In this document: in pieces, positions 3,672 through 28,184 of the stretch
Position numbering within the stretch: position 1 is the first letter of the stretch
Layout: every line of letters starts with the position of its first letter
Assembly (NCBI GenBank): GCA_017462485.1
Contig: JAFTRA010000010.1
Location: 1 to 34,980, forward strand
Direction: 5' to 3'
From: Clostridia bacterium
GTDB lineage: Bacteria; Bacillota; Clostridia; Oscillospirales; CAG-272
DNA length: 34,980 nucleotides
Notes under the pieces: generated by a model
The model's input: only the letters and a program-made list of their open reading frames with translations
Told to the model about the DNA's origin: nothing
The model's database searches: none
Position numbers and translations under genes: made by a program

Positions 3672-5699
3672 TTATACCTTTGCTACCTCTTTTTTGGAAG
3701 CAAGAGCGTACTCATCCTTCAGAGTTCTCTGCTTCTTTATTATAAGAAGAGTGACAATCGCAACGATTGCAGCTACGATAATCCAACCTACAATAGGCAT
3801 CCAAGCGGAGCCGAAGTTTGCGCCCGTGAAGAGAGTGCCGAAGAAGTAAACGAGGAAGCTTATCGAATAACCGGTTGCAAACTGGAGTCCAATGCCGGCC
3901 CAGAGCCACTTTCTGCTCTTAATTTCGGAGTTCATAGCGCCGATAGCAGCGAAGCAAGGCGGTGTGAAGAGATTGAACATAAGGAATGCGAGAGCAGCAA
4001 CCTTGGTGATTGCGAATACGCTTGCGACAGCCTCTCCTGCGCCTTCCATAAGAGCAAGCTCATCGGTGTCAATGAGGTTTTCAAGTCCTACGAAGCAAAC
4101 CGCAAGAGTTCCTACTACGTTCTCCTTTGCGATAAAGCCCGTAACTGCCGCAGCGGCAAGCTGCCAAGCAACGACACCCACGATAGGAGCAATAAGGTAG
4201 GCAAAGGGCGTTGCTACGTCGTGAAGAATGGAATCAGCCGCATCAACAACCTCAAATCTCCAGTTGAACGTCTGCATTACGTGAACTACGAAGTTACATA
4301 CGAGAATTATCGTGCCTGCCTTAACTATGTACGCCCAACCGCGCTGACACATAGACTGCGCTGCTCGAAGGAAGCTCGGAACCTTATACTCGGGAAGCTC
4401 CATAATGAAGAAATTCTTTCTGTTCTTATAACCCGTAAGAAGATTGATAAGAAGAGCGCCGAGAAGTATAATAGCGATGCCTACGAAATACATCATAGTA
4501 CCAACCCATGCGGACTCACCGAAGAATGCGCCCGCAAATAGCGAAATAACGGGAAGCTTTGCGCCGCAGGGCATAAAGGGAGTGAGCATAGCGGTTGCTC
4601 TGCGTTCTCTCTCGTTACGGATAGTACGACAAGCCATAACGCCGGGGATTGCGCATCCCGTACCGATAACGAAGGGAATAACCGATTTACCCGAAAGACC
4701 AACCTTTTTGAAGATGGGGTCGAGAACTACCGTAGCACGAGCCATATAGCCGCAATCCTCAAGAAGAGCGATAAGGAAATACATTATCATTACAAGAGGG
4801 AGGAAGCCTATAACGGCGATAACACCGCCCATAATACCGTCAACGAGGATTGACGCCCATATGCTGAGCTCACCCGCATCGTTTGCGAGAGCGTCGGCAA
4901 CAAAGCCCTGACCTGCCTCAAGCCAGCCTACGAAGGTATCCGCAATAAACGGACCAAGCCAAGCCTGCGAAATTCCGAACACTAAGAACATAACAACCGC
5001 AAAAATCGGAATGCCTGCCCACTTATTCGTAAGAACGGCGTCTATCTTATCCTGATAGTTCTTTTCCTTTGTGAACACCTTACGCGTTTCAACATCGGCT
5101 ACAATTTTGTTTACGAACTCGAAGCGACGTCTGTCAGCCGCTTCAACTACGGCTTTGTTCGTAAGGTCGATATCAGCCTGATTGTAAGGAGCCTTCTGCC
5201 CCTTGCCTATAGCCTCGGTTGCCGCGCGGACCACGTCGGAAAGTCCGTCGTGTGAAGTGGATACGGTTTCAACAACACGGCACCCAAGCTTCTCAGAAAG
5301 CGCCGCTACGTCAATCTTAGTTTCCTTTTTCTTATTTACGTCCGCCTTGTTCAAGGCTACAACGACAGGAATACCAAGCTCAAGGAGCTGCGTTGTAAAG
5401 AAGAGGCTTCTCGAAAGGTTCGTCGCGTCAACGATATTGATGATAACGTCGGGATTCTCTTCTCTTACGTAAGAGCTGGTGATGCTTTCCTCTGACGTAA
5501 AGGGTGACATTGAGTACGCACCGGGAAGGTCAACCGCAAAGAGTCCATCCATCTCGCCGCAATAGCTCTTTTTAATGGGGTGCTCTTTTTTCTCAACGGT
5601 AACGCCTGCCCAGTTGCCGACCTTCTCACTGCGTCCGGTCAAGGCATTGTACATCGTGGTCTTACCGCTGTTAGGATTGCCCGCTAAAGCAATTCTCAT
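3672..5699 (-). CDS. feoB: Ferrous iron transporter FeoB
   Basis: The 675-residue protein is a GTPase-coupled ferrous iron importer in the cytoplasmic membrane. The N-terminal G domain shows G1 GNPNSGKTT (7-15), the switch-I region around GNWAGVTVEKK, G3 DLPG (57-60) and G4 NKAD (117-120). After a helical linker, two gate regions with Cys and pore helices follow (MARATVVLD, VIPFVIGTGCAIPGVMACR, FMPCGAKLPVI, FTPPCFAAIGA). The length fits the shorter Gram-positive FeoB form. It starts at ATG 5699 with AGGAGG upstream. feoA lies upstream, separated by a terminator-like hairpin and a metal-box palindrome, so feoB may be transcribed at a lower level than feoA or through its own regulated read-through. 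Confidence 0.97.
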   Translation of the reverse strand: MRIALAGNPNSGKTTMYNALTGRSEKVGNWAGVTVEKKEHPIKKSYCGEMDGLFAVDLPGAYSMSPFTSEESITSSYVREENPDVIINIVDATNLSRSLFFTTQLLELGIPVVVALNKADVNKKKETKIDVAALSEKLGCRVVETVSTSHDGLSDVVRAATEAIGKGQKAPYNQADIDLTNKAVVEAADRRRFEFVNKIVADVETRKVFTKEKNYQDKIDAVLTNKWAGIPIFAVVMFLVFGISQAWLGPFIADTFVGWLEAGQGFVADALANDAGELSIWASILVDGIMGGVIAVIGFLPLVMIMYFLIALLEDCGYMARATVVLDPIFKKVGLSGKSVIPFVIGTGCAIPGVMACRTIRNERERRATAMLTPFMPCGAKLPVISLFAGAFFGESAWVGTMMYFVGIAIILLGALLINLLTGYKNRKNFFIMELPEYKVPSFLRAAQSMCQRGWAYIVKAGTIILVCNFVVHVMQTFNWRFEVVDAADSILHDVATPFAYLIAPIVGVVAWQLAAAAVTGFIAKENVVGTLAVCFVGLENLIDTDELALMEGAGEAVASVFAITKVAALAFLMFNLFTPPCFAAIGAMNSEIKSRKWLWAGIGLQFATGYSISFLVYFFGTLFTGANFGSAWMPIVGWIIVAAIVAIVTLLIIKKQRTLKDEYALASKKEVAKV

Positions 5700-5750: not shown

Positions 5751-5769
5751 GAGTTAGCCATGGCTAACC
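5751..5769. promoter_or_regulatory. DtxR-like palindrome between feoA and feoB
   Basis: GAGTTAGCCATGGCTAACC contains a perfect 16-bp palindrome (5753-5768). It matches the sites at feoA (6231-6249) and copA (25545-25564). No convincing promoter accompanies this copy. It may act as a roadblock or belong to a weak feoB promoter. Confidence 0.65.
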
Positions 5770-5777
5770 AAAGCGGT

Positions 5778-5808
5778 TAAAAAAAGGAAACTTTAAATTT
5801 CCTTTTTT
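5778..5808 (-). terminator. Terminator/attenuator after feoA
   Basis: On the minus strand AAAAAAGGAAA (5808-5798) pairs with TTTCCTTTTTT (5790-5780), followed by a further T. It is an 11-bp stem with a T-rich distal arm placed inside the feoA-feoB operon, so it is expected to reduce feoB transcription. Confidence 0.7.
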
Positions 5809-5815
5809 AAAAAAA

Positions 5816-6031
5816 TTACTCAACTATAATAGCTTCCGCTAAGAGACTATCAAGACTGTACCTACCGTCCTTTATAGCTACCACGCAGCCGCTCTTACGG
5901 TGCGAAATAACCGTTATAGGCTCACCGCTATAGCATCCAAGAGAAAACAAAAACGAATTCAAGTCCTCGTCATCGGTTTCGATGCGTTTAACTATATACT
6001 CTTTTCCCTCTTCAGCTAATCTCAAGTTCAT
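5816..6031 (-). CDS. feoA: Ferrous iron transport protein A
   Basis: The 71-residue protein has the SH3-like FeoA fold pattern: beta strands around YIVKRIE, a conserved LGC turn (FLFSLGCYSGEPITVI) and a C-terminal VAIKDGRYSL segment. FeoA is a small cytosolic partner of the FeoB G domain. ATG 6031 has AGGAG upstream. It is the first gene of the feo operon, with a leader of about 220 nt behind a consensus promoter and a DtxR-like box. Confidence 0.9.
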   Translation of the reverse strand: MNLRLAEEGKEYIVKRIETDDEDLNSFLFSLGCYSGEPITVISHRKSGCVVAIKDGRYSLDSLLAEAIIVE

Positions 6032-6180: not shown

Positions 6181-6230
6181 TTAATGACACGTAAATTGTA
6201 ATCATCTTAATTAATTCATACGACAAATTA

Positions 6231-6249
6231 GGTTAGCCTACGCTAACTC
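6231..6249 (-). promoter_or_regulatory. DtxR-like iron box at the feoA start site
   Basis: GAGTTAGC-GTAG-GCTAACC (minus strand) begins 9 nt after the -10 box, covering the predicted transcription start. With flanking bases (TTAGGTTAGC on the plus strand) it closely resembles the half-site of IdeR/DtxR operators. Binding of a metal-loaded repressor here would block feo transcription. Confidence 0.75.
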
Positions 6250-6258
6250 ACGCAGGTA

Positions 6259-6287
6259 ATTATACTACTTTATTCAAAATTTGTCAA
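6259..6287 (-). promoter_or_regulatory. Consensus promoter of feoA
   Basis: Perfect TTGACA (6287-6282), a 17-bp spacer and perfect TATAAT (6264-6259) on the minus strand. A fully consensus promoter under an operator suggests strong expression when derepressed. Confidence 0.92.
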
Positions 6288-6476
6288 TACTTTTTTTGAA
6301 AAAGGAGCATTTTTTTGAAAAAATTGGTTTAACTGACAAAAAAATTCATAAATATCTTTTCAAGCTTATGCACAATTGATACTATACAGAACAAGTCAAG
6401 GTGTTGTTAGACTCAAGTTGATATCGGGTTAATTTTTTTGAGAAATTACAAAATCCTTTACATCGGGCTAAAGCTC

Positions 6477-6505
6477 TTGAATATATCTTCAAGTTGTGAT
6501 ATACT
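6477..6505 (+). promoter_or_regulatory. Promoter of the glycerol-1-phosphate dehydrogenase operon
   Basis: TTGAAT (6477-6482), a 17-bp spacer and TATACT (6500-6505), 32 bp before ATG 6538. The 190 bp between this and the feoA promoter is AT-rich with no other feature seen. Confidence 0.75.
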
Positions 6506-6537
6506 TTAGCCGTAAAACAGATGACAAGGAGATTGTT

Positions 6538-7809
6538 ATGGATATAAACAAGCTTTTATCGGGCGTTGATTGCGCTTGCGGCAATATGCACAGATGCGAT
6601 ATCAAATACGTCTTTGTTGAACGTGATGCTATGAAGCATCTTACCGAAATGTGCGACGGATATGAGAATATTCTCATCGTAGCAGACGAAAATACTTACG
6701 GAGTCGGCGGTGAGAAGACCGAGAGATATCTTGTCGGAAAAAATCTTAATAGAGTCATCTTCCCCGCATCCCCTCTGCTTATCCCTAACGAGCTTGCTAT
6801 AGACACGGCAATCAAAAAAACCTCGGGAGTTGACCTCATTATAGGAATAGGCTCAGGGGTCATACAGGATTTATGCAAATACGTTTCGCACACCACAAAA
6901 ATCCCCTACTACATAGTTGCGACCGCTCCCTCTATGGACGGCTACGCTTCAAGCGGAGCCGCTATGATAACCGACGGTATGAAGGTTACATACTCCGCAA
7001 AGGTGCCGAGCGCAATAATAGCTGACACGGGAATTCTGAAAGACGCTCCTATGGATATGATAAAGGCAGGCTACGGAGATATCATAGGAAAATATTCGGC
7101 TCTAAACGACTGGAAGCTTGGCGCGGTTGTTAACGGTGAATATTTCTGCGATTATATCTACGACCTCACCTACGATATGCTCCTTAAGGTGCTACCTCTT
7201 GCAGAAAAGCTTCTTGAAAGAGACGAGGATAGCATAAAAACTCTTATGGAAGCCTTGATTCTCGTCGGAGTGGCTATGAGCTTTGCGGGAAATTCGAGAC
7301 CCGCATCGGGCAGTGAGCATCACTTATCCCACTATTTTGAAATAACCGGAATAGTTGACGGTACAGAATATCTTCCTCACGGAATTGACGTAGTATATTC
7401 TACGGCGGTCACGTCGAAAATCCGTGAAAAAATAAAAAGCGCCGCCTTCCCGAAGGAGCAGTTCGTTATGAACGAGGACGAGCGCAAGCGTGAGATTTCA
7501 AGAGTTTATAAATCGGTTGCCGACGGCTGCATAGCGCTGCAGGAGAAGCTCGGAACGTATAGGGACAACCGCCTCGCGCGTTATATAGTTAATGAAGAAA
7601 AAATCAAAAATATTCTTTCGGAAGCTCCAACTCACGACGAAATAATCGCAATACTCGGAAAAATTGAGCTCGACCCGAAGGAATTTTACAATACGTATTC
7701 CGAAGAAAAGATTCGGGATGCGGTAAGATACGCAAAAGACCTTAAGGACAGATACACTGTTCTTTGGATGTATTATGACGTTTTTGGAATAGAGGATTTT
7801 GACAAATGA
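6538..7809 (+). CDS. sn-Glycerol-1-phosphate dehydrogenase family (AraM/EgsA-like)
   Basis: The 423-residue protein belongs to the iron/zinc alcohol-dehydrogenase-like G1PDH family, which reduces dihydroxyacetone phosphate to sn-glycerol 1-phosphate with NAD(P)H. Visible signatures are the dinucleotide segment LIIGIGSGVIQD, the TAPSMDGYAS substrate motif, and metal ligands in GDIIGKYSALNDW (Asp), SEHHLSHYFE (His) and LPHGIDV (His). The C-terminal ~100 residues form a helical extension. ATG 6538 was chosen because AAGGAG lies 6 nt upstream; the in-frame ATG at 6496 lies within the promoter -10. The HAD phosphatase gene overlaps its stop by 4 bp, so the two are translationally coupled. In Bacillus subtilis the homologue AraM makes G1P for archaeal-type lipid precursors and sits next to the HAD phosphatase AraL. 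Confidence 0.85.
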   Translation: MDINKLLSGVDCACGNMHRCDIKYVFVERDAMKHLTEMCDGYENILIVADENTYGVGGEKTERYLVGKNLNRVIFPASPLLIPNELAIDTAIKKTSGVDLIIGIGSGVIQDLCKYVSHTTKIPYYIVATAPSMDGYASSGAAMITDGMKVTYSAKVPSAIIADTGILKDAPMDMIKAGYGDIIGKYSALNDWKLGAVVNGEYFCDYIYDLTYDMLLKVLPLAEKLLERDEDSIKTLMEALILVGVAMSFAGNSRPASGSEHHLSHYFEITGIVDGTEYLPHGIDVVYSTAVTSKIREKIKSAAFPKEQFVMNEDERKREISRVYKSVADGCIALQEKLGTYRDNRLARYIVNEEKIKNILSEAPTHDEIIAILGKIELDPKEFYNTYSEEKIRDAVRYAKDLKDRYTVLWMYYDVFGIEDFDK

Positions 7810-8522
7810 AAAATATAAAGCTTATAGCTATGGACCTTGACGGAACTCTTACCCAACACAAAACACCGCTCGACGAGGAGCACACGGAAGCGCTTATTGC
7901 ACTCTCAAAAAAGTATAAGCTTCTTATGGTTGGGGCCGGTATGTGCAACAGAATATTCAATCAGATGAACAAATTCCCTATTGATATCCTCGGAAATTAC
8001 GGTATGCAATACGCAGAATACAACGAAGAAACGAAATCCCTTGACATCGTATTTGACGAGGTGCGCCCCTGCGACAGAGAAAGTGTAGAAAAGAGAGTTA
8101 CCGCTATGAGAGAAAAGCACGGCTTCACAAGCTTTGCGGGTGATAGCGTTGAATATCATTCCTCAGGCTGCGTAACCTTCCCCATTCTCGGCACAAAGGC
8201 CGTTACCGAGGACAAGCTTGCGTTTGACCCCGACAGAAAGAAGCGCCGCGCTATCTACGACGAAATAAAGGAAGTCTTTTCCGATTACACAGTTTTCGTT
8301 GGAGGCTCCTCCTCGTTTGATATGGCTCCCTTCCCCTTCAATAAGGCGTATGCTCTCGGTAAATACTGCGACGAGAGAGGAATAGCTCACGACGAGGTCG
8401 TTTACATAGGAGACGACTACGGTCCCGGCGGCAACGACGAGTCTGTTTATCTTTCAGACTTTAACTATATAAAGATAGACGATTACAGAGATTTCCCTAA
8501 GCTTATAGAAGAGCTTTTATAG
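7806..8522 (+). CDS. HAD-IIB phosphatase, phosphomannomutase-like
   Basis: The 238-residue protein has HAD motif I MDLDGTL (nucleophile D10, acid D12), a mid-protein cap segment, GSSSFDMAPFPFNK, and motif IV IGDDYGPGGNDE. The last two resemble the eukaryotic-type phosphomannomutase branch of HAD-IIB, though the protein is equally compatible with a sugar- or polyol-phosphatase. It starts within an ATGA overlap with the dehydrogenase gene, so it probably acts on the same metabolite pool, perhaps glycerol 1-phosphate or a dihydroxyacetone-phosphate-related compound. That substrate assignment is inference. A terminator follows at 8599-8659. Confidence 0.8.
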   Translation: MKNIKLIAMDLDGTLTQHKTPLDEEHTEALIALSKKYKLLMVGAGMCNRIFNQMNKFPIDILGNYGMQYAEYNEETKSLDIVFDEVRPCDRESVEKRVTAMREKHGFTSFAGDSVEYHSSGCVTFPILGTKAVTEDKLAFDPDRKKRRAIYDEIKEVFSDYTVFVGGSSSFDMAPFPFNKAYALGKYCDERGIAHDEVVYIGDDYGPGGNDESVYLSDFNYIKIDDYRDFPKLIEELL

Positions 8523-8534
8523 CGACAATCCAAA

Positions 8535-8574
8535 GTCGAAACCCACAGAATTTCGACATACTATAATCATTATA
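8535..8574. repeat. Fragment of the MITE-like element
   Basis: GTCGAAA (8535-8541) pairs with TTTCGAC (8551-8557). Bases 8551-8574 (TTTCGACATACTATAATCAT, then TATA) match the right end of the element at 9243-9455 with three or fewer differences. Confidence 0.6.
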
Positions 8575-8598
8575 AAAATACGCCAAAAGCAAAAAAGC

Positions 8599-8659
8599 AA
8601 AGAAGTCCGAAGAAATGCATTATCCTTGTGGAAAAGCAGTTTTTTCGAACTTCTTTTTT
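8599..8659. terminator. Bidirectional terminator between convergent genes
   Basis: AAAGAAGT (8599-8606) pairs with ACTTCTTT (8649-8656), with further pairing CGAA/TTCG inside. A T run follows on the plus strand, and on the minus strand the stem is followed by GCTTTTTT. It serves both the HAD gene and the CarD-like gene. Confidence 0.7.
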
Positions 8660-8709
8660 ATTTGCACCTTTACGGTACAAATTCTTTGTTTTATTATATT
8701 TTTGAGTAG

Positions 8710-9222
8710 TTATTTATTTTTTCGGCAAGCCGCAGATATATAATCGGCAACCTCGCACTCGGGTATGCCGAGAGAAGCCGCAAGCTCGGAATAAAGAATA
8801 GCTTCGGCACGCTTTATCATATTTTCATCGCTTGCGTACGCTTTCTTTCCCTCGCTCTTTCGGCTCTCGCAATTCAGCCAAACCGACTTGATTACAGAGA
8901 TTATATCCCTATGACTTGCGCTGCCAATCAGCTTCTTGTAGTTATCGGTTCTTTGCTTTGAATCCTTTTTCCATTCGGCAGCGGGTATATCCGGAATTTC
9001 TTTTATGAGCTTTTCGGCATCCTTTTTCGTTATAGGATATCTCATTTGCGACGTCAGCGCCTCGTTATCCACGGGAACGAAAACGAAGGACTCTCTTTTT
9101 TCACCTACAGGTCTCATAACGTAATATTTATGAGTTTCGCCTAATACGTTCTCTTCCCTCACGTCTTCTATTTCAAAGACTCCGTTAGTTCCATAGACAA
9201 CCTTTTCTCCAATCTTATACAT
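8710..9222 (-). CDS. CarD/CdnL-TRCF-family transcription regulator
   Basis: The 170-residue protein begins with the RNA-polymerase-interacting CarD Tudor-like domain (YKIGEKVVYGTNGVFEIEDV ... YYVMRP ... FVFVPVDNE, about 1-60). An all-helical C-terminal domain follows (about 75-165), which in CarD contacts upstream-fork promoter DNA. The family binds the RNAP beta subunit and stabilises open promoter complexes. I chose ATG 9222 (MYKIGEK) because GAGGTGGG is the ribosome site; the longer version would start at a TTG inside that site. It is monocistronic, with the hairpin element immediately upstream, so its promoter is either within that element or displaced by it. Confidence 0.85.
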   Translation of the reverse strand: MYKIGEKVVYGTNGVFEIEDVREENVLGETHKYYVMRPVGEKRESFVFVPVDNEALTSQMRYPITKKDAEKLIKEIPDIPAAEWKKDSKQRTDNYKKLIGSASHRDIISVIKSVWLNCESRKSEGKKAYASDENMIKRAEAILYSELAASLGIPECEVADYISAACRKNK

Positions 9223-22871: not shown

Positions 22872-25481
22872 TTAAAGCACCTTGTAACCTGCAGCGGTAA
22901 CTATATCACGAAGCGCATTAACGTTTTCTTCGGTTACCATAGCGCCCTTGACGAGAACTATTTTTGCCATTCCCTTCTCGTGCGACACGTCTGCAGAGAA
23001 TACAAGCTCAGACTCCTCGAGCGCGCTCTTTACTCTGCCAGAGCAGTGATGGCACATCATACCCTCAATACTAAGCTTGACCGTCTTTTTCATTTCCATA
23101 TCTCCCTCTTCTTCGTTTGTTTCAAAGTCATTTATATTTGTTTTAATATTTACCGGCGCCGTTTCCTTGGAATCGGCGTTCGTTTTTTGCGATTTTAATG
23201 CCTTTTTTGATACACGGGTGGGGTCAAACAGATTTAACCTTAAGGCGTTACTTACTACGAGAAAGCTTGATATACTCATAGCCGCCGCACCGAACATAGG
23301 CTTAAGGCTCCAGCCGAAAGCTCCTATAAACACGCCTGCCGCAAGGGGTATTCCGACTAAGTTATAGCAAAATGCCCAGAAAAGATTCTCATACACGTTA
23401 AGAAGAACTCTTCTTCCGAGTTTTATGGCAGCAACAACGCCCGACATACCGCCCCGTGCTAAAACAACGTCGGCAGAATCAATAGCCACGTCAGCTCCCT
23501 TACCTACCGCTATTCCGACGTCGGCTTCGGTCAAGGCAACCGAATCGTTTATTCCGTCGCCAACCATAGCTACGGCACGTCCGCCCGCGGAAAGCTCTTT
23601 TATTACCTTTGCCTTATCAAGAGGTAAAACCTCCGAAACAACTCGGTTAATTCCGACACGCCCTGACACGTATTCGGCAGATTTGCGGTTATCACCCGTT
23701 ATCATAACGGTTTCTATTCCAAGAGATTGAAGACCTTTTATTGCCTCGGCACTGTCGTCTCTTATCCTATCCGCAACAGCGATAAGACCTAAAATCCTTC
23801 CGCACTCGGCAAAAATCAGCACCGTTTTTCCCTCAGCAGAAAGCCTATCAAAATCGACAAGGAGCTTACCCGAAAGGTCGGTGGACGCTTCCCTTTGAAT
23901 GAATGCTCTGTTTCCTCCGAAAATGCGATTTCCGCCCACGATGCCGCTTACTCCTCCAAGCTGCGCCAGAAATTCTTCGCATACGGGATATTCGAGCGAA
24001 TGTAGATTGTTTTTCTCAGCCACTATAGCGCGGGCAAGGGGATGCTCGCTCTTTTCTTCGAGCGATATCGCAAGCTTGAGAAGCTCACCGCTATCAACAC
24101 CTGCTGAGGATATTACGTCTTTAACCTCAGGCTTGCCCTCGGTTATAGTACCAGTTTTGTCAAACGCGACGGTTTTGATTTTTCCTGCCGCTTCAAGACC
24201 TGCGGCGGTCTTAAACAGTATTCCGTGCTTTGCGCCAACACCGCTTCCCACCATTATTGCAACGGGAGTCGCAAGCCCAAGAGCGCACGGACAGCTTATA
24301 ACAAGCACCGTTACGGCTCTTTCAAGAGCTACGCCAACGTCCACCCGAAGAAACAGCCACGTGATGAGCGTTATAACGGATACGAGAATTACGAACGGTA
24401 CGAAAACGCCTGCAACCTTGTCAGCCGCCTTTGCGACCGGAGCTTTACTTCCGGAGGCTTCCTTAACCATTTTTATAACTGCAGCGATAGCGGTCTGCTC
24501 TCCAACCTTCACAGCTTCGATTTTTGCATAGCCCGAAAGCACCGTGGTTGCGCCGAAAACAGAAGCTCCGACTGTTTTATCGACGGGAATCGACTCGCCC
24601 GTCAAGGCAGACTCATCTACCGAAATTTCTCCGAAAATTACTTTTCCGTCAACCGCAAGATTTTCTCCTCTTTTAGCGATAAAGACATCTCCGACCTTTA
24701 TTTCCTTCACGGGAATCACGGTCTCTTCTCCGTCTCTTATTACCGTTACCATTTTAGGAGTCAGGTCCATAAGAGATTTAATCGCGGAGGTAGTTTTACC
24801 CTTTGCGTGCGCTTCAAGAAGCTTGCCCACGGTTATAAGCACCAGAATCATCGCCGCTGACTCAAAATAGAGTCCGTGGAGCCTTGAATGAGCTAAAGCC
24901 ACGTCGCCCGACACTAAATCAGACGACATAAGATATACGATAACGACGCTGTAAACGAAGGATACGAAGGAGCCCAGCGCCACCAGCGTGTCCATATTGG
25001 GAGAGAGCTTTATAATTCCCTTTGCTCCGTTTATGAAAAAGCGCTTATTGATTATCATTACGATAGCCGAGAGAATCATCTCGCTTAAAGCAATCGCAAT
25101 AGGATTATTTGCCATAAAGGCGGGTAAGGGTAAGGAGAGCATCATATGCCCCATTGATATATACATAAGAACTAGAAGCAGAGCGAGTGAAAAAACGAGA
25201 CGTATCGCAGTACGGTTTTTTTCCAAATCGTCTATATTGCTCGAGGACTCGCTCTCACCCTTTGATTCATTGTTTATTCCCTCGGGTCTTGCGGAATATC
25301 CGGCGCGCTTTACGGCAAGCGAAATCTCGTCGGAAGAAGCATCGCCGACAACGTCCATCGTGCCAAGCAAAAGATTAACCTCGCACCCCTCGACCCCCTC
25401 GAGCGCAGAAACTGCCTTTTCAACTCTCGCAACGCAAGCGGCGCAGCTCATTCCGCTCACCTTGTATCTTTTTTTATCCAC
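22872..25481 (-). CDS. copA: Copper-transporting P1B-type ATPase with N- and C-terminal HMA domains
   Basis: The 869-residue protein starts with a heavy-metal domain (GMSCAACVARVEKAV; C13, C16). P-type core features follow: TGES actuator loop, the CPC metal site in VISCPCALGLATP, DKTGT phosphorylation site, SEHPLARAI, MITGDN and GDGINDS. The last membrane helices show the Cu(I) signature (YNLVGIPLAAG, MSISSFLVVSNALRL). A second heavy-metal domain is fused at the C-terminus (about 797-869; GMMCHHCSG with C810 and C813), joined by a charged linker. It exports Cu(I) from the cytosol. The C-terminal domain resembles a free CopZ chaperone and has its own ribosome-site-like sequence. A consensus promoter and DtxR-like palindrome lie upstream. 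Confidence 0.95.
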   Translation of the reverse strand: MDKKRYKVSGMSCAACVARVEKAVSALEGVEGCEVNLLLGTMDVVGDASSDEISLAVKRAGYSARPEGINNESKGESESSSNIDDLEKNRTAIRLVFSLALLLVLMYISMGHMMLSLPLPAFMANNPIAIALSEMILSAIVMIINKRFFINGAKGIIKLSPNMDTLVALGSFVSFVYSVVIVYLMSSDLVSGDVALAHSRLHGLYFESAAMILVLITVGKLLEAHAKGKTTSAIKSLMDLTPKMVTVIRDGEETVIPVKEIKVGDVFIAKRGENLAVDGKVIFGEISVDESALTGESIPVDKTVGASVFGATTVLSGYAKIEAVKVGEQTAIAAVIKMVKEASGSKAPVAKAADKVAGVFVPFVILVSVITLITWLFLRVDVGVALERAVTVLVISCPCALGLATPVAIMVGSGVGAKHGILFKTAAGLEAAGKIKTVAFDKTGTITEGKPEVKDVISSAGVDSGELLKLAISLEEKSEHPLARAIVAEKNNLHSLEYPVCEEFLAQLGGVSGIVGGNRIFGGNRAFIQREASTDLSGKLLVDFDRLSAEGKTVLIFAECGRILGLIAVADRIRDDSAEAIKGLQSLGIETVMITGDNRKSAEYVSGRVGINRVVSEVLPLDKAKVIKELSAGGRAVAMVGDGINDSVALTEADVGIAVGKGADVAIDSADVVLARGGMSGVVAAIKLGRRVLLNVYENLFWAFCYNLVGIPLAAGVFIGAFGWSLKPMFGAAAMSISSFLVVSNALRLNLFDPTRVSKKALKSQKTNADSKETAPVNIKTNINDFETNEEEGDMEMKKTVKLSIEGMMCHHCSGRVKSALEESELVFSADVSHEKGMAKIVLVKGAMVTEENVNALRDIVTAAGYKVL
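23091..23109 (-). promoter_or_regulatory. Internal ribosome site for a standalone C-terminal HMA domain
   Basis: Within copA (minus strand) GAGGGAG is followed by ATATGGAA and ATG (codon 797). The spacing to this ATG is 8 nt, which is optimal. Initiation here would yield a 73-residue CopZ-like protein (MKKTVKLSIEGMMCHHCSG...). Confidence 0.45.
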
Positions 25482-25544
25482 TTTATTTTCCTCTGTGTCT
25501 TTTTTGGGATATCGTATTATACTTTAGTAATTATTTTCCAAAGC

Positions 25545-25564
25545 GAGTTAGCATATGCAAACTC
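25545..25564 (-). promoter_or_regulatory. DtxR-like palindrome at the copA start site
   Basis: GAGTTTGC-ATAT-GCTAACTC (minus strand) is palindromic at 18 of 20 positions. It begins 9 nt after the -10 box, the same geometry as the feoA operator at 6231-6249. Confidence 0.7.
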
Positions 25565-25573
25565 ACCTTTATT

Positions 25574-25602
25574 ATTATATATTCTTTCTCTCCGTTTGTC
25601 AA
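25574..25602 (-). promoter_or_regulatory. Consensus promoter of copA
   Basis: Perfect TTGACA (25602-25597), a 17-bp spacer and perfect TATAAT (25579-25574) on the minus strand. The leader to ATG 25481 is about 85 nt and carries a second, weaker TATAAT near 25516-25521 without a good -35. Confidence 0.9.
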
Positions 25603-25670
25603 GTTCGAGGTTGAAAAATACGATGCCATATTGGTAAAAATTGAAATAATCAAAGCGTAAGATTTACAGA

Positions 25671-25740
25671 AACTCGGCTCAGGTTATGATTTAAACAAAC
25701 TCGGCTATGGTTTCTATTGACAGAAGAATTCGGTTATGGT
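25671..25740. repeat. Three degenerate direct repeats over the helicase promoter
   Basis: AACTCGGCTCAGGTTATG (25671), AACTCGGCTATGGTTT (25698) and AATTCGGTTATGGT (25727) repeat at 27-29 bp intervals. The third overlaps the spacer and -10 of the promoter. They could be regulator sites or a local duplication. Confidence 0.55.
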
Positions 25741-25745
25741 AAAAT
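25717..25745 (+). promoter_or_regulatory. Promoter of the helicase gene
   Basis: TTGACA (25717-25722), a 17-bp spacer and TAAAAT (25740-25745), 51 bp before ATG 25797. Confidence 0.8.
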
Positions 25746-25796
25746 AAATAGGCATACAGCAAGTAAATTCGAACAGTCCGTGAAAGGAGGAGAAAT

Positions 25797-28184
25797 ATGA
25801 AATACGACACATCTTCGGGAAAGCTTTCCGTCAGCGTAAGAGAAGCCGTTGCTACCGCAAGGCGCGGCATCAGCGGATATACGCCGCTCGATAGTGAAGA
25901 GCCCGAATTTTCCACTTCTCCTCTGCCGGATTTCTATAAAAATGACAATAAACGTTTACTTTCTCGTGATTTTGATATTGAAAATTATACTTTCTGCGTC
26001 TATGGAGAATTAAACTTTGCAAAAGAAGACGAGATACATTTTATTTCTACGATTCCCACGGTAAAGGACTCGAAAAAGGGGGAGGTCGTAAAACAGACAC
26101 GGGGCGAAGCGTTTATGCTTGGCGCTATGTATCTCTTCTCGGAAAAAGAGAATTTTGACTCCCTGAATATCAAAATACTATATATTGCATCAGACACGCG
26201 AGAGGTAAAGGAAACGGAAGAGACCGTTACCCGTGATAAGCTTTTCGCATTTTTTGACAAATGTATGAGAGAGCTATGCGACTCGGGAAAAGCCGAGATT
26301 GAGAAGGTAACGAAAAGGCTTCCTTCTATGAAGATGGTAAAATTCCCCTACGGCAAGGCTCGTGACGGACAGGACGAATTTATTCGCACCGCTTACAAGG
26401 CAATAGCCAGAGGCTCACGCCTTTATGCCACAGCACCGACAGGCACAGGTAAAACCGTTTCGGCTCTCTTCCCCGCCATTCGCGCGCTTGGAAATAAAAA
26501 GTGCGAAAAGGTCTTCTATCTCACCCCTAAGCAGACTACCGCCACGGCAGCCAAGGAGTGCATTGAAAAGCTTTCCGAAAACGGAGCGAAAATACGCTCG
26601 GTCATACTCATAGCAAAGGAAAAGCTTTGCAAAAATTCTCTCGTTTGCCGCGAGAGTAAGCGACTTTGCAAAAATCTTTCCTCGGGGCATATGAAGGATG
26701 CCGTAATGGCGCTCTTCGATGCGGATATACCAACCGTATCCCCCTCGGAAATTTCAAAATTCGCAGAAGAGTTCGGGGTTTGCCCATACGAGCTTTCGCT
26801 CACCTACTCGGAGCTTTGCGACGTTATAATATGCGACTTCAATTATCTCTTTGACCCGCAGGTTTATATAAGGCGCTTCTTCTCTCACGGTGGAAACTAC
26901 GCTTTCCTAATAGACGAGGCGCATAACCTCTCGGAGCGCGCGAGAGAAATGTACAGTGCTGAAATTTCACTTGCCGATATACAGAATACCGAGCCGCTTG
27001 GCACGTTTTCGGAGCTAAAAAGATTAGCCTCTGACGTCTCAGAAGCCTTTAAGCTTATTCTTCTTCCGCTCCTTCACGACGAAGTGCGGCGTGACAAGGA
27101 CGGTATTCCTCATGGAGCGTATCACACACGCTCCCTCCCCGGTGAATTCTATACGCTTTTCTCAAAGCTTTCAGAGGTGGCAGAGAACGAGCTTTTCGCA
27201 AGCTTTTCGGCAAAAGACGAGGAAAAAGATGCGAGAATAAGCTATTTGCGTGAATACCTTTTCAAAGTAAATAAATTCTATAATGCCGTTTTACGATTCG
27301 ACGATGGATTTGAGCTATTTGCTTTTCTTGACGGTGATGAGCTTCGCGCAAAAATATTCTGTCTTGACACGGGTGGGGTTATAAGTAGCCGACTCGACCT
27401 TGGAAAAAGTGCGGTTCTTTTCTCGGGAACTCTATCCCCCTTATCCTATTACCGCTCGGTGCTTGGCGGAGACCGTTCTTCGATGACTCTCACGCTTGAT
27501 TCTCCGTTTTCTCCCGAGCAGCTTTCCGTATCCGTTATGGACAAAATAACGACGAGATTTTCCGAGCGCGAGGACTCGCTTCTTGCGGTATGCCGTGTTA
27601 TTGCCGCAACGCTTTCGGCAAGGCGCGGAAATTATATGATATTCTCTCCCTCGTTCGCATATGCAGAGGCTCTTGCAAATGCATTCTCGAAAAAATATCC
27701 TAAAATAAAGATGATACTGCAAAAGCCTAACATGACACGGAAAGAAAAGGACGATTTTCTTCTCGAATTTTCAAAAAGCAACGGCACGTATCTTGCCGCA
27801 TTCTGCGTTATGGGTGGAATCTACTCCGAAGGAATAGACCTCTCGGGTGACAAGCTGATTGGCGCGATAATAGTAGGTATTGGAATGCCCTCGCTTTCAT
27901 TCGAGCGTGAGGCTATTGCGGCATATTACCAGGAAAAGCTTGAATCGGGAACAGAATACGCATATATTTATCCGGGAATGAACAGAGTTTTGCAGGCGGC
28001 AGGAAGAGTTATAAGAACGGAAGACGACAGAGGCGTTATAGTCCTCATAGACGACCGCTTTGACGACCCGATTTACAAGAAAACAGCACCGTCGCTATGG
28101 TCTGGAATGGAATTTTTACCAGACGCAAAAATTCTAAAGGAACGTCTTGAGGAATTCTGGCACGGAGTCGATGAAGAGGAATAA
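25797..28184 (+). CDS. XPD/DinG-type iron-sulfur DNA helicase
   Basis: The 795-residue superfamily 2 helicase has Walker A ATAPTGTGKTV (211-221). Four cysteines (C278, C284, C291, C329) are placed like the XPD iron-sulfur ligands (KEKLCKNSLVC...RLC ... GVCPYEL). It also has DEAH at 373-376 and motif VI QAAGRVIR near 735. The family unwinds DNA 5' to 3', usually in repair of R-loops or damage. The N-terminal ~190 residues occupy the place of the Cas4-like nuclease domain of related bacterial helicases, but the usual D-E-x-K residues are replaced (IHFISTIP). It is therefore probably a degenerate, non-catalytic version. AAAGGAGG precedes ATG 25797. It is monocistronic, with a clear terminator. 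Confidence 0.88.
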   Translation: MKYDTSSGKLSVSVREAVATARRGISGYTPLDSEEPEFSTSPLPDFYKNDNKRLLSRDFDIENYTFCVYGELNFAKEDEIHFISTIPTVKDSKKGEVVKQTRGEAFMLGAMYLFSEKENFDSLNIKILYIASDTREVKETEETVTRDKLFAFFDKCMRELCDSGKAEIEKVTKRLPSMKMVKFPYGKARDGQDEFIRTAYKAIARGSRLYATAPTGTGKTVSALFPAIRALGNKKCEKVFYLTPKQTTATAAKECIEKLSENGAKIRSVILIAKEKLCKNSLVCRESKRLCKNLSSGHMKDAVMALFDADIPTVSPSEISKFAEEFGVCPYELSLTYSELCDVIICDFNYLFDPQVYIRRFFSHGGNYAFLIDEAHNLSERAREMYSAEISLADIQNTEPLGTFSELKRLASDVSEAFKLILLPLLHDEVRRDKDGIPHGAYHTRSLPGEFYTLFSKLSEVAENELFASFSAKDEEKDARISYLREYLFKVNKFYNAVLRFDDGFELFAFLDGDELRAKIFCLDTGGVISSRLDLGKSAVLFSGTLSPLSYYRSVLGGDRSSMTLTLDSPFSPEQLSVSVMDKITTRFSEREDSLLAVCRVIAATLSARRGNYMIFSPSFAYAEALANAFSKKYPKIKMILQKPNMTRKEKDDFLLEFSKSNGTYLAAFCVMGGIYSEGIDLSGDKLIGAIIVGIGMPSLSFEREAIAAYYQEKLESGTEYAYIYPGMNRVLQAAGRVIRTEDDRGVIVLIDDRFDDPIYKKTAPSLWSGMEFLPDAKILKERLEEFWHGVDEEE

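Follow-up and report, generated by a model that had tools for sequence, protein, structure and literature searches.

Bacteria usually place copper export under a copper-sensing regulator, for instance CsoR, CopY or CueR. In the locus examined here, copA, which encodes a Cu(I)-exporting ATPase, is preceded by a palindrome of the type found at the ferrous iron uptake genes feoA and feoB, and this raises the question of which regulator acts on a copper pump through an apparently iron-type site. The initial annotation had proposed that a single metalloregulator encoded outside the window represses both sets of genes. The window, i.e., the whole stretch of DNA that was analyzed, comprises 34,980 bases and corresponds to one of the 49 contigs that make up a 2.23-Mb genome. 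Its minus strand carries feoA-feoB and copA, which are approximately 17 kb apart, together with the following features.

3672..5699, minus strand: feoB, 675 aa; TIGR00437 over the cut-off, with FeoB_N, Gate and FeoB_C domains
5751..5770 (core 5753-5768), minus strand: second Feo candidate operator, in the feoA-feoB gap, GTTAGC-CATG-GCTAAC; score 25.3
5816..6031, minus strand: feoA, 71 aa; Pfam FeoA PF04023, 51.7 bits against a cut-off of 23
6230..6249 (motif 6232-6249), minus strand: feoA candidate operator, GAGTTAGC-GTAG-GCTAAC; matrix score 26.2
6259..6287, minus strand: feoA promoter TTGACA-N17-TATAAT, 12/12 consensus match
22872..25481, minus strand: copA, Cu(I) P1B-type ATPase, 869 aa; N- and C-terminal HMA domains and a CPC motif
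25545..25564 (motif 25547-25564), minus strand: copA candidate operator, GAGTTTGC-ATAT-GCTAAC; matrix score 17.7
25574..25602, minus strand: copA promoter TTGACA-N17-TATAAT, 12/12 consensus match

The assignment of feoAB to ferrous uptake and of copA to Cu(I) export was confirmed by Pfam and TIGR profiles and by the CPC and HMA features. In a profile search, CopA scored 526.4 bits against TIGR01511 (copper-translocating; cut-off 397) and matched PF00122, PF00702 and HMA, the last in two stretches, with CPC present in the translation. It shows the P1B-1 features (TIGR01511, HMA and CPC), and its score of 567.1 against the equivalog NF007952 lies below the cut-off of 1316. Regarding the palindromes, the site reported 9 nt past a perfect feoA promoter was read as described, with a 12/12 promoter and a 17-nt spacer, and the third copy reported between feoA and feoB was located at the core given above. 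The distance from TATAAT to GAGTT is exactly 9 nt at both feoA and copA, and both spacers are 17 nt. At copA, the perfect promoter and the 9-nt gap were confirmed, whereas the description "the same palindrome" is slightly too strong because the site differs from GTTAGC-N4-GCTAAC by a single base in one arm.

This mismatch leaves room for the explanation that the copA box is a functionless near-match arising by chance and that copA is constitutive or otherwise controlled, and raw counts near background point in the same direction. In the window, six oriented matches with up to three mismatches were found against 2.96 expected, and 9 of 100 shuffles reached six; in the genome, 48 matches with up to two mismatches compare with 58 for the reversed control, and six with up to one mismatch compare with four. 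Since the pattern equals background at two to three mismatches, we rejected raw mismatch counts as stand-alone evidence. The genome-wide scan suggested in the initial annotation revealed a placement that is not random: of the six sites that deviate by no more than one base, three are in the window and the others are C4:8555, C4:8888 and C22:23080; five of the six are at two feoAB operons and copA. The palindrome exceeds chance by position and not by raw mismatch count. The 9-nt register after a perfect promoter, as at feoA, also argues against a chance origin at copA. The second feoA-feoB operon of the host genome (L020, G000:C4, about 6455-9000) has the same two-operator layout. The site at C22:23080 is a one-mismatch box 5' of a gene for a GlpA-like FAD oxidoreductase with a BFD-like [2Fe-2S] domain, and may be a regulon member or a chance occurrence.

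We then considered how far this palindrome accompanies ferrous uptake genes across the bacterial family. A FeoA search gave 59 matches in 56 of 118 genomes, and 30 loci were studied, one per genome with the host included. A box with at most two mismatches was present 5' of feoA in 27 of these 30 loci; every one of the 30, the host's included, has such a box in the feoA-feoB gap. In 24/30 loci, a promoter with no more than two mismatches ends 7-11 nt before the feoA box, and such a promoter was found ahead of the intergenic box in none of the 30. The 57 feo boxes yield the consensus RGTTAGY-N4-RCTAACY, the arms of which are invariant partly because the boxes were picked by similarity. A match to the pattern within one mismatch is present in 107/118 family genomes, a count that is weak alone because the reversed control is also common in these genomes. 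When the best box locus of each of 30 genomes was inspected, 23 also held a feoA, feoB, dtxR or copA match and seven did not. Among these seven, L051 has a DUF454 gene directly downstream, and L036 has a ZIP-family transporter gene starting approximately 0.5 kb downstream. Tandem boxes with starts 34 bp apart were observed in G094, G002, G070, G114, G055, G108 and G087, and other pairs, 20, 29 and 31 bp apart, in G020 and G064; a T run lies between the boxes in several cases, and these arrangements may mark cooperative binding. On these patterns, RGTTAGY-N4-RCTAACY is a candidate ferrous-uptake operator in many genomes of the family.

An inverted repeat of this kind may instead function at the RNA level, where it could form a 5' hairpin, a terminator or a processing site. 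The repeat begins at about the position at which transcription should start at feoA and copA, the RNA can fold, and the feoA box itself was listed as terminator-like by a terminator scan. We nevertheless regard this explanation as very improbable: the box overlaps the -35 element in L086 and L087 or the -10 element in L220 (by eye), where it would not be transcribed from that promoter, C-A mismatches interrupt the stem in L244, L245 and L246, and the box is also found in front of dtxR.

Whether the box is a property of copA promoters beyond the host was assessed at 199 copA loci (170 + 29), of which 194 remained after the removal of four repeats and one truncated gene, and 192 unique loci after the removal of two cross-collection duplicates; the family set contributed loci from 88 genomes, out of 106 having a copA match. 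A box was defined as a site at most 300 nt upstream found with a symmetrised matrix from the 57 feo boxes. It was present at 12 of the 192 unique loci with scores of 7.9 to 22.9 (host, 17.7), and the next scores, 5.8 and 5.4, belong to two palindromes that were left uncounted. Eleven loci score at least 9, for which permuted matrices give 0-2. Three of the boxes (L086, L087 and L098) are among the 78 named loci; L086, from Ruminococcus flavefaciens ND2009, has a weaker box. Within the same loci, 13 matrix sites were found in the 60,365 bases directly 5' of copA and 10 in 1,566,546 bases elsewhere, a 34-fold difference in density; eight of the 10 sites elsewhere are in loci that also have feo or dtxR matches, and without these eight, the difference is approximately 168-fold. 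On a FastTree tree of 178 CopA sequences, from which 16 of the 194 were excluded as short and in which all 12 box loci were kept, the box state is scattered and requires at least nine changes (gains or losses); copA appears to have been placed under a feo-type box several separate times in related bacteria.

Considering that the box recurs at copA elsewhere, a function at this gene is favored. The nearest CopA relatives, G129 (L253, 66%) and G122 (L254, 59%), are box-free, which speaks for chance; the 34-fold density and the scattered recurrence on the tree speak against it, and we judge a chance near-match to be improbable. These relatives also bear on an outcome that the initial annotation had counted against itself, namely, that copA orthologues in close relatives lack the box and carry CsoR sites instead. 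The first part was observed in these two, and the second was not: csoR is also missing upstream of both genes, and a search of the two genomes (81-82% complete) gave no CsoR match. Within the genus, csoR lies upstream of copA at 16 of 30 loci and the box at two (the host and G175), and neither is present at 12.

The position of the box relative to the copA promoter, as judged by eye, varies. It overlaps or closely follows the -10 element in L053, L170 and L220, as does the weaker palindrome of L140, and lies approximately 30 nt behind it in L219. It overlaps the -35 element in L086 and L087 and is just upstream of the expected -35 element in L098; given this position, the box in these three might serve activation instead. 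In L182, L189 and L262, the box and copA are separated by 128-234 nt, and the box may act on another promoter. Variant palindromes occur directly after the copA -10 box in L202 (GTTACC-N4-GGTAAC) and L140 (ATTTGC-N4-GCTAAC); these weaker or variant forms are outside the count of 12 and are perhaps diverged forms of the same candidate operator. Box-like sites in L121 and L133 coincide with the location of csoR and were taken as chance.

The same loci allow a comparison with csoR-copA, the usual arrangement. With one CsoR query, searched on the same strand within 1500 nt or to the locus end, csoR was found 5' of a homologous copA at 113 of the 192 unique loci and not at 79, 22 of these csoR-free calls resting on less than 1500 nt of upstream sequence. 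All 12 box-bearing loci fall among the 79 (hypergeometric 1.4e-5, ignoring relatedness). The contrast is not significant on tree-independent pairs; therefore, a swap with csoR is only suggestive, and the recurrence of the box is firmer. Of the nine G-numbered genomes with a box at copA, six have no CsoR, and G098, G089 and G175 have one elsewhere, so that the exclusion of csoR at these genes is local. The absence of CsoR is common in any case because it was found in only 52 of the 118 family genomes. The host differs from the usual arrangement in having a Feo-type box at the copA promoter and no CsoR: no PF02583 match was found in its genome (G000). With no CsoR gene in the genome or beside copA, control of the window copA by CsoR was rejected. 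CopY was rejected as well: the CopY-type operator TACANNTGTA is absent from 25401-25800, and the two PF03965 proteins over the cut-off each adjoin a frame resembling a membrane metallopeptidase and have no CxC tail, so that neither is a CxC-type CopY candidate.

The remaining question concerns the protein that recognizes the palindrome. A search of the host genome for DtxR-family genes, as suggested in the initial annotation, found a single protein with both DtxR domains, encoded on another contig than the window.

C35:18655-19032: dtxR, 126 aa; the host genome's one protein with both DtxR domains

The protein scores over the cut-offs for PF01325 (N-terminal DNA-binding, 41.9 bits) and PF02742 (metal-binding and dimerisation, 56.7 bits); two more PF01325 matches in the genome are both under the cut-off. 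Homologues were found in 111 of the 118 family genomes. The classical DtxR/IdeR box is a 19-bp palindrome with GTTAG and CTAAC arms 1 bp apart. The DtxR/IdeR half-sites claimed earlier are present here as the same arms, whereas the spacing does not follow the classical form: a 6-bp gap separates the arms, both at the three sites of the window and in the feo boxes of the matrix, 57 sequences that were chosen by this pattern. The system shares with the DtxR/IdeR iron repressors both Pfam domains, the Met/Cys/Glu/His ligands, the arms and, presumably, the control of ferrous uptake, and differs from them in a length of 126 aa without an SH3 domain and in a copper exporter among the candidate targets.

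Another protein, for example, a member of the Fur or MerR family, may bind the palindrome, and a Fur-like open frame was seen by eye after copA in G090. We consider this improbable since box loci also hold dtxR in 9/30 genomes, a box is present at most 300 nt 5' of dtxR in 6/30 dtxR loci (0.05 with permuted matrices), and the arms are closer to DtxR half-sites than to Fur boxes. No box was found in the 300 nt upstream of the host's own dtxR. Gene neighborhoods associate these genes in other genomes: dtxR lies at most 400 nt from feoA in 10 of the 55 genomes in which both were found, and copA and dtxR are within about 8 kb of each other in 9 of the 102 genomes holding both, for which approximately one is expected by our own estimate for 2-Mb genomes. 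In three genomes (G021:C6, G087:C25 and G089:C47), the distances from dtxR to copA are 201, 232 and 318 bp, and in G089, feoA, feoB, copA and dtxR form one same-strand cluster.

Regarding the metal, an MntR-like sensor of manganese, or of manganese and iron, would tie feo and copA to manganese. The protein resembles MntR of Bacillus subtilis in its two-domain size, its best PDB matches are MntR chains, and its top NCBIfam matches are also MntR entries; an SH3-like C-terminal domain is absent, the 126-aa frame ending after the dimerisation domain; and the ZIP-family gene of L036 starts approximately 0.5 kb from a box. The DtxR/MntR equivalog cut-offs of NCBIfam were not reached (77.1 of 153, 71.6 of 138, 48.8 of 290 and 37.7 of 350 bits). 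In alignments to PDB chains, the two positions that discriminate MntR, which has Asp and Glu there, are occupied by Met and Cys in this protein, and the best chain, 1on2, although from MntR, carries Met in place of Asp. The Met residue and a DAC[KR]xEH segment are conserved in all 30 homologues examined, the host's included. The protein therefore has Met, Cys, Glu and His at the primary site by alignment to MntR and DtxR chains, which we take, from the roles of these residues, to be the iron-sensing DtxR pattern. The conserved targets, feoAB, also differ from what manganese sensing would suggest, and copA joins them as a candidate. A review states that the SH3-less members reported so far showed no in vivo response to Fe2+ (PMC7762939), and with the SH3 domain missing here, we regard manganese or mixed sensing as a plausible, though less probable, alternative.

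The intergenic feo box has a further feature, located directly upstream of it in the direction of transcription.

5779..5802, minus strand: terminator-like A+T-rich hairpin (GGAAATTTAAAGTTTCC) in the feoA-feoB gap, followed by a T7 run that ends 10 nt ahead of the intergenic box

In 21 of the 30 family loci (L223-L252), the intergenic box is preceded by a run of at least five T residues; the distance from the end of this run to GTTAG is exactly 8 nt in 14 of these loci (range 8-12). In the second host feoAB operon (L020), it also ends 8 nt before the box. Across 182 unique boxes, the commonest distance to the nearest T run is 8 nt, with 23 cases, 20 of which are before feoB, and T runs at 3-7 nt amount to 10 cases in all. 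A second, broad peak at 45-49 nt upstream contains 30 of 364 oriented boxes (182 unique). Of 39 cases before feoB, 26 have a stem of five or more pairs directly adjoining the T run, compared with 3.6 expected from shuffles; elsewhere, the figure is 6 of 30 (2.9 expected). The base pairs of these stems vary between loci. A terminator accordingly fits better before feoB, where these stem counts also disfavor the T run as a mere A-tract for DNA bending. Folding gave mixed results: the hairpin of the second operon folds well (z -4.55) and the whole hairpin-plus-box stretch of the window exceeds shuffles (z -3.47), whereas a 33-nt stretch of the window that contains the hairpin but not the T run does not outperform shuffles (z -0.89), and a terminator scan of the window did not list the hairpin. 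In L163 and L164 (genus g28), a hairpin and then a box lie 5' of copA with no promoter by eye; both resemble the feoA-feoB layout, L163 has no T run, and the stem test did not score L164.

DNA-bound LacI inside a transcription unit has been reported to stall polymerase and lead to termination (PMC6593788). The present layout differs from this roadblock in that a terminator-like hairpin and T run often end 8 nt ahead of the candidate operator. A repressor bound at this distance could stall polymerase on the U tract, and we therefore propose repressor-assisted termination. No report of a feoA-feoB terminator with a DtxR site was found in the open-licence literature searched, and the excerpts of PMC7764795, PMC5605881 and PMC9240420 describe neither such a terminator nor a DtxR-controlled copper ATPase. 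The hairpin, 8-nt gap and candidate operator represent a clean test case for termination of this type.

Taken together, the conserved Feo box, the boxes at dtxR and the DtxR protein, with no CsoR in the genome and no CopY candidate at copA, support the proposal of one metalloregulator encoded outside the window for feo and copA. We consider it probable that a short DtxR-family repressor, probably loaded with Fe2+, governs feoAB and copA through the shared palindrome. In its metal-loaded form, most likely with Fe2+, DtxR would cover the start region of the feoA and copA promoters, and both feoAB and copA would be shut; when iron falls, or copper upsets the iron pool, the repressor would be released and both would be made. 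Binding by DtxR, iron as the metal and repression as the direction are inferred. A more far-reaching combination, in which DtxR repeatedly replaced CsoR, Cu(I) may displace iron at the soft Met/Cys/His site, and the holo-repressor both blocks initiation and gates the feoA-feoB terminator, is doubtful as a whole; if true, one protein would answer both iron shortage and copper excess.

The benefit of joint control by such a repressor would presumably be the export of copper that enters with iron or that is more harmful at low iron. In Streptococcus pneumoniae, iron ABC importers are described as raising copper accumulation, and metal-binding regions of Staphylococcus aureus FeoB have been reported to coordinate copper (cited in PMC13317198); making the exporter alongside the importer would be sensible for these reasons. 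The pneumococcal case shares with ours the reason for pairing a copper pump with iron importers and differs in that the importers are ABC transporters, copA is under CopY, and the excerpt of that report (PMC13317198) mentions no operator common to iron and copper genes. No report of DtxR-family control of a copper ATPase was found in the open-licence literature searched. This arrangement suggests that iron hunger and copper defense are wired together. It also defines a candidate operator through which iron may control genes in little-studied Clostridia, and a copper pump under a putative ferrous-iron operator would be a naturally occurring regulatory swap in which to test whether iron supply and copper toxicity are connected, as has been suspected.
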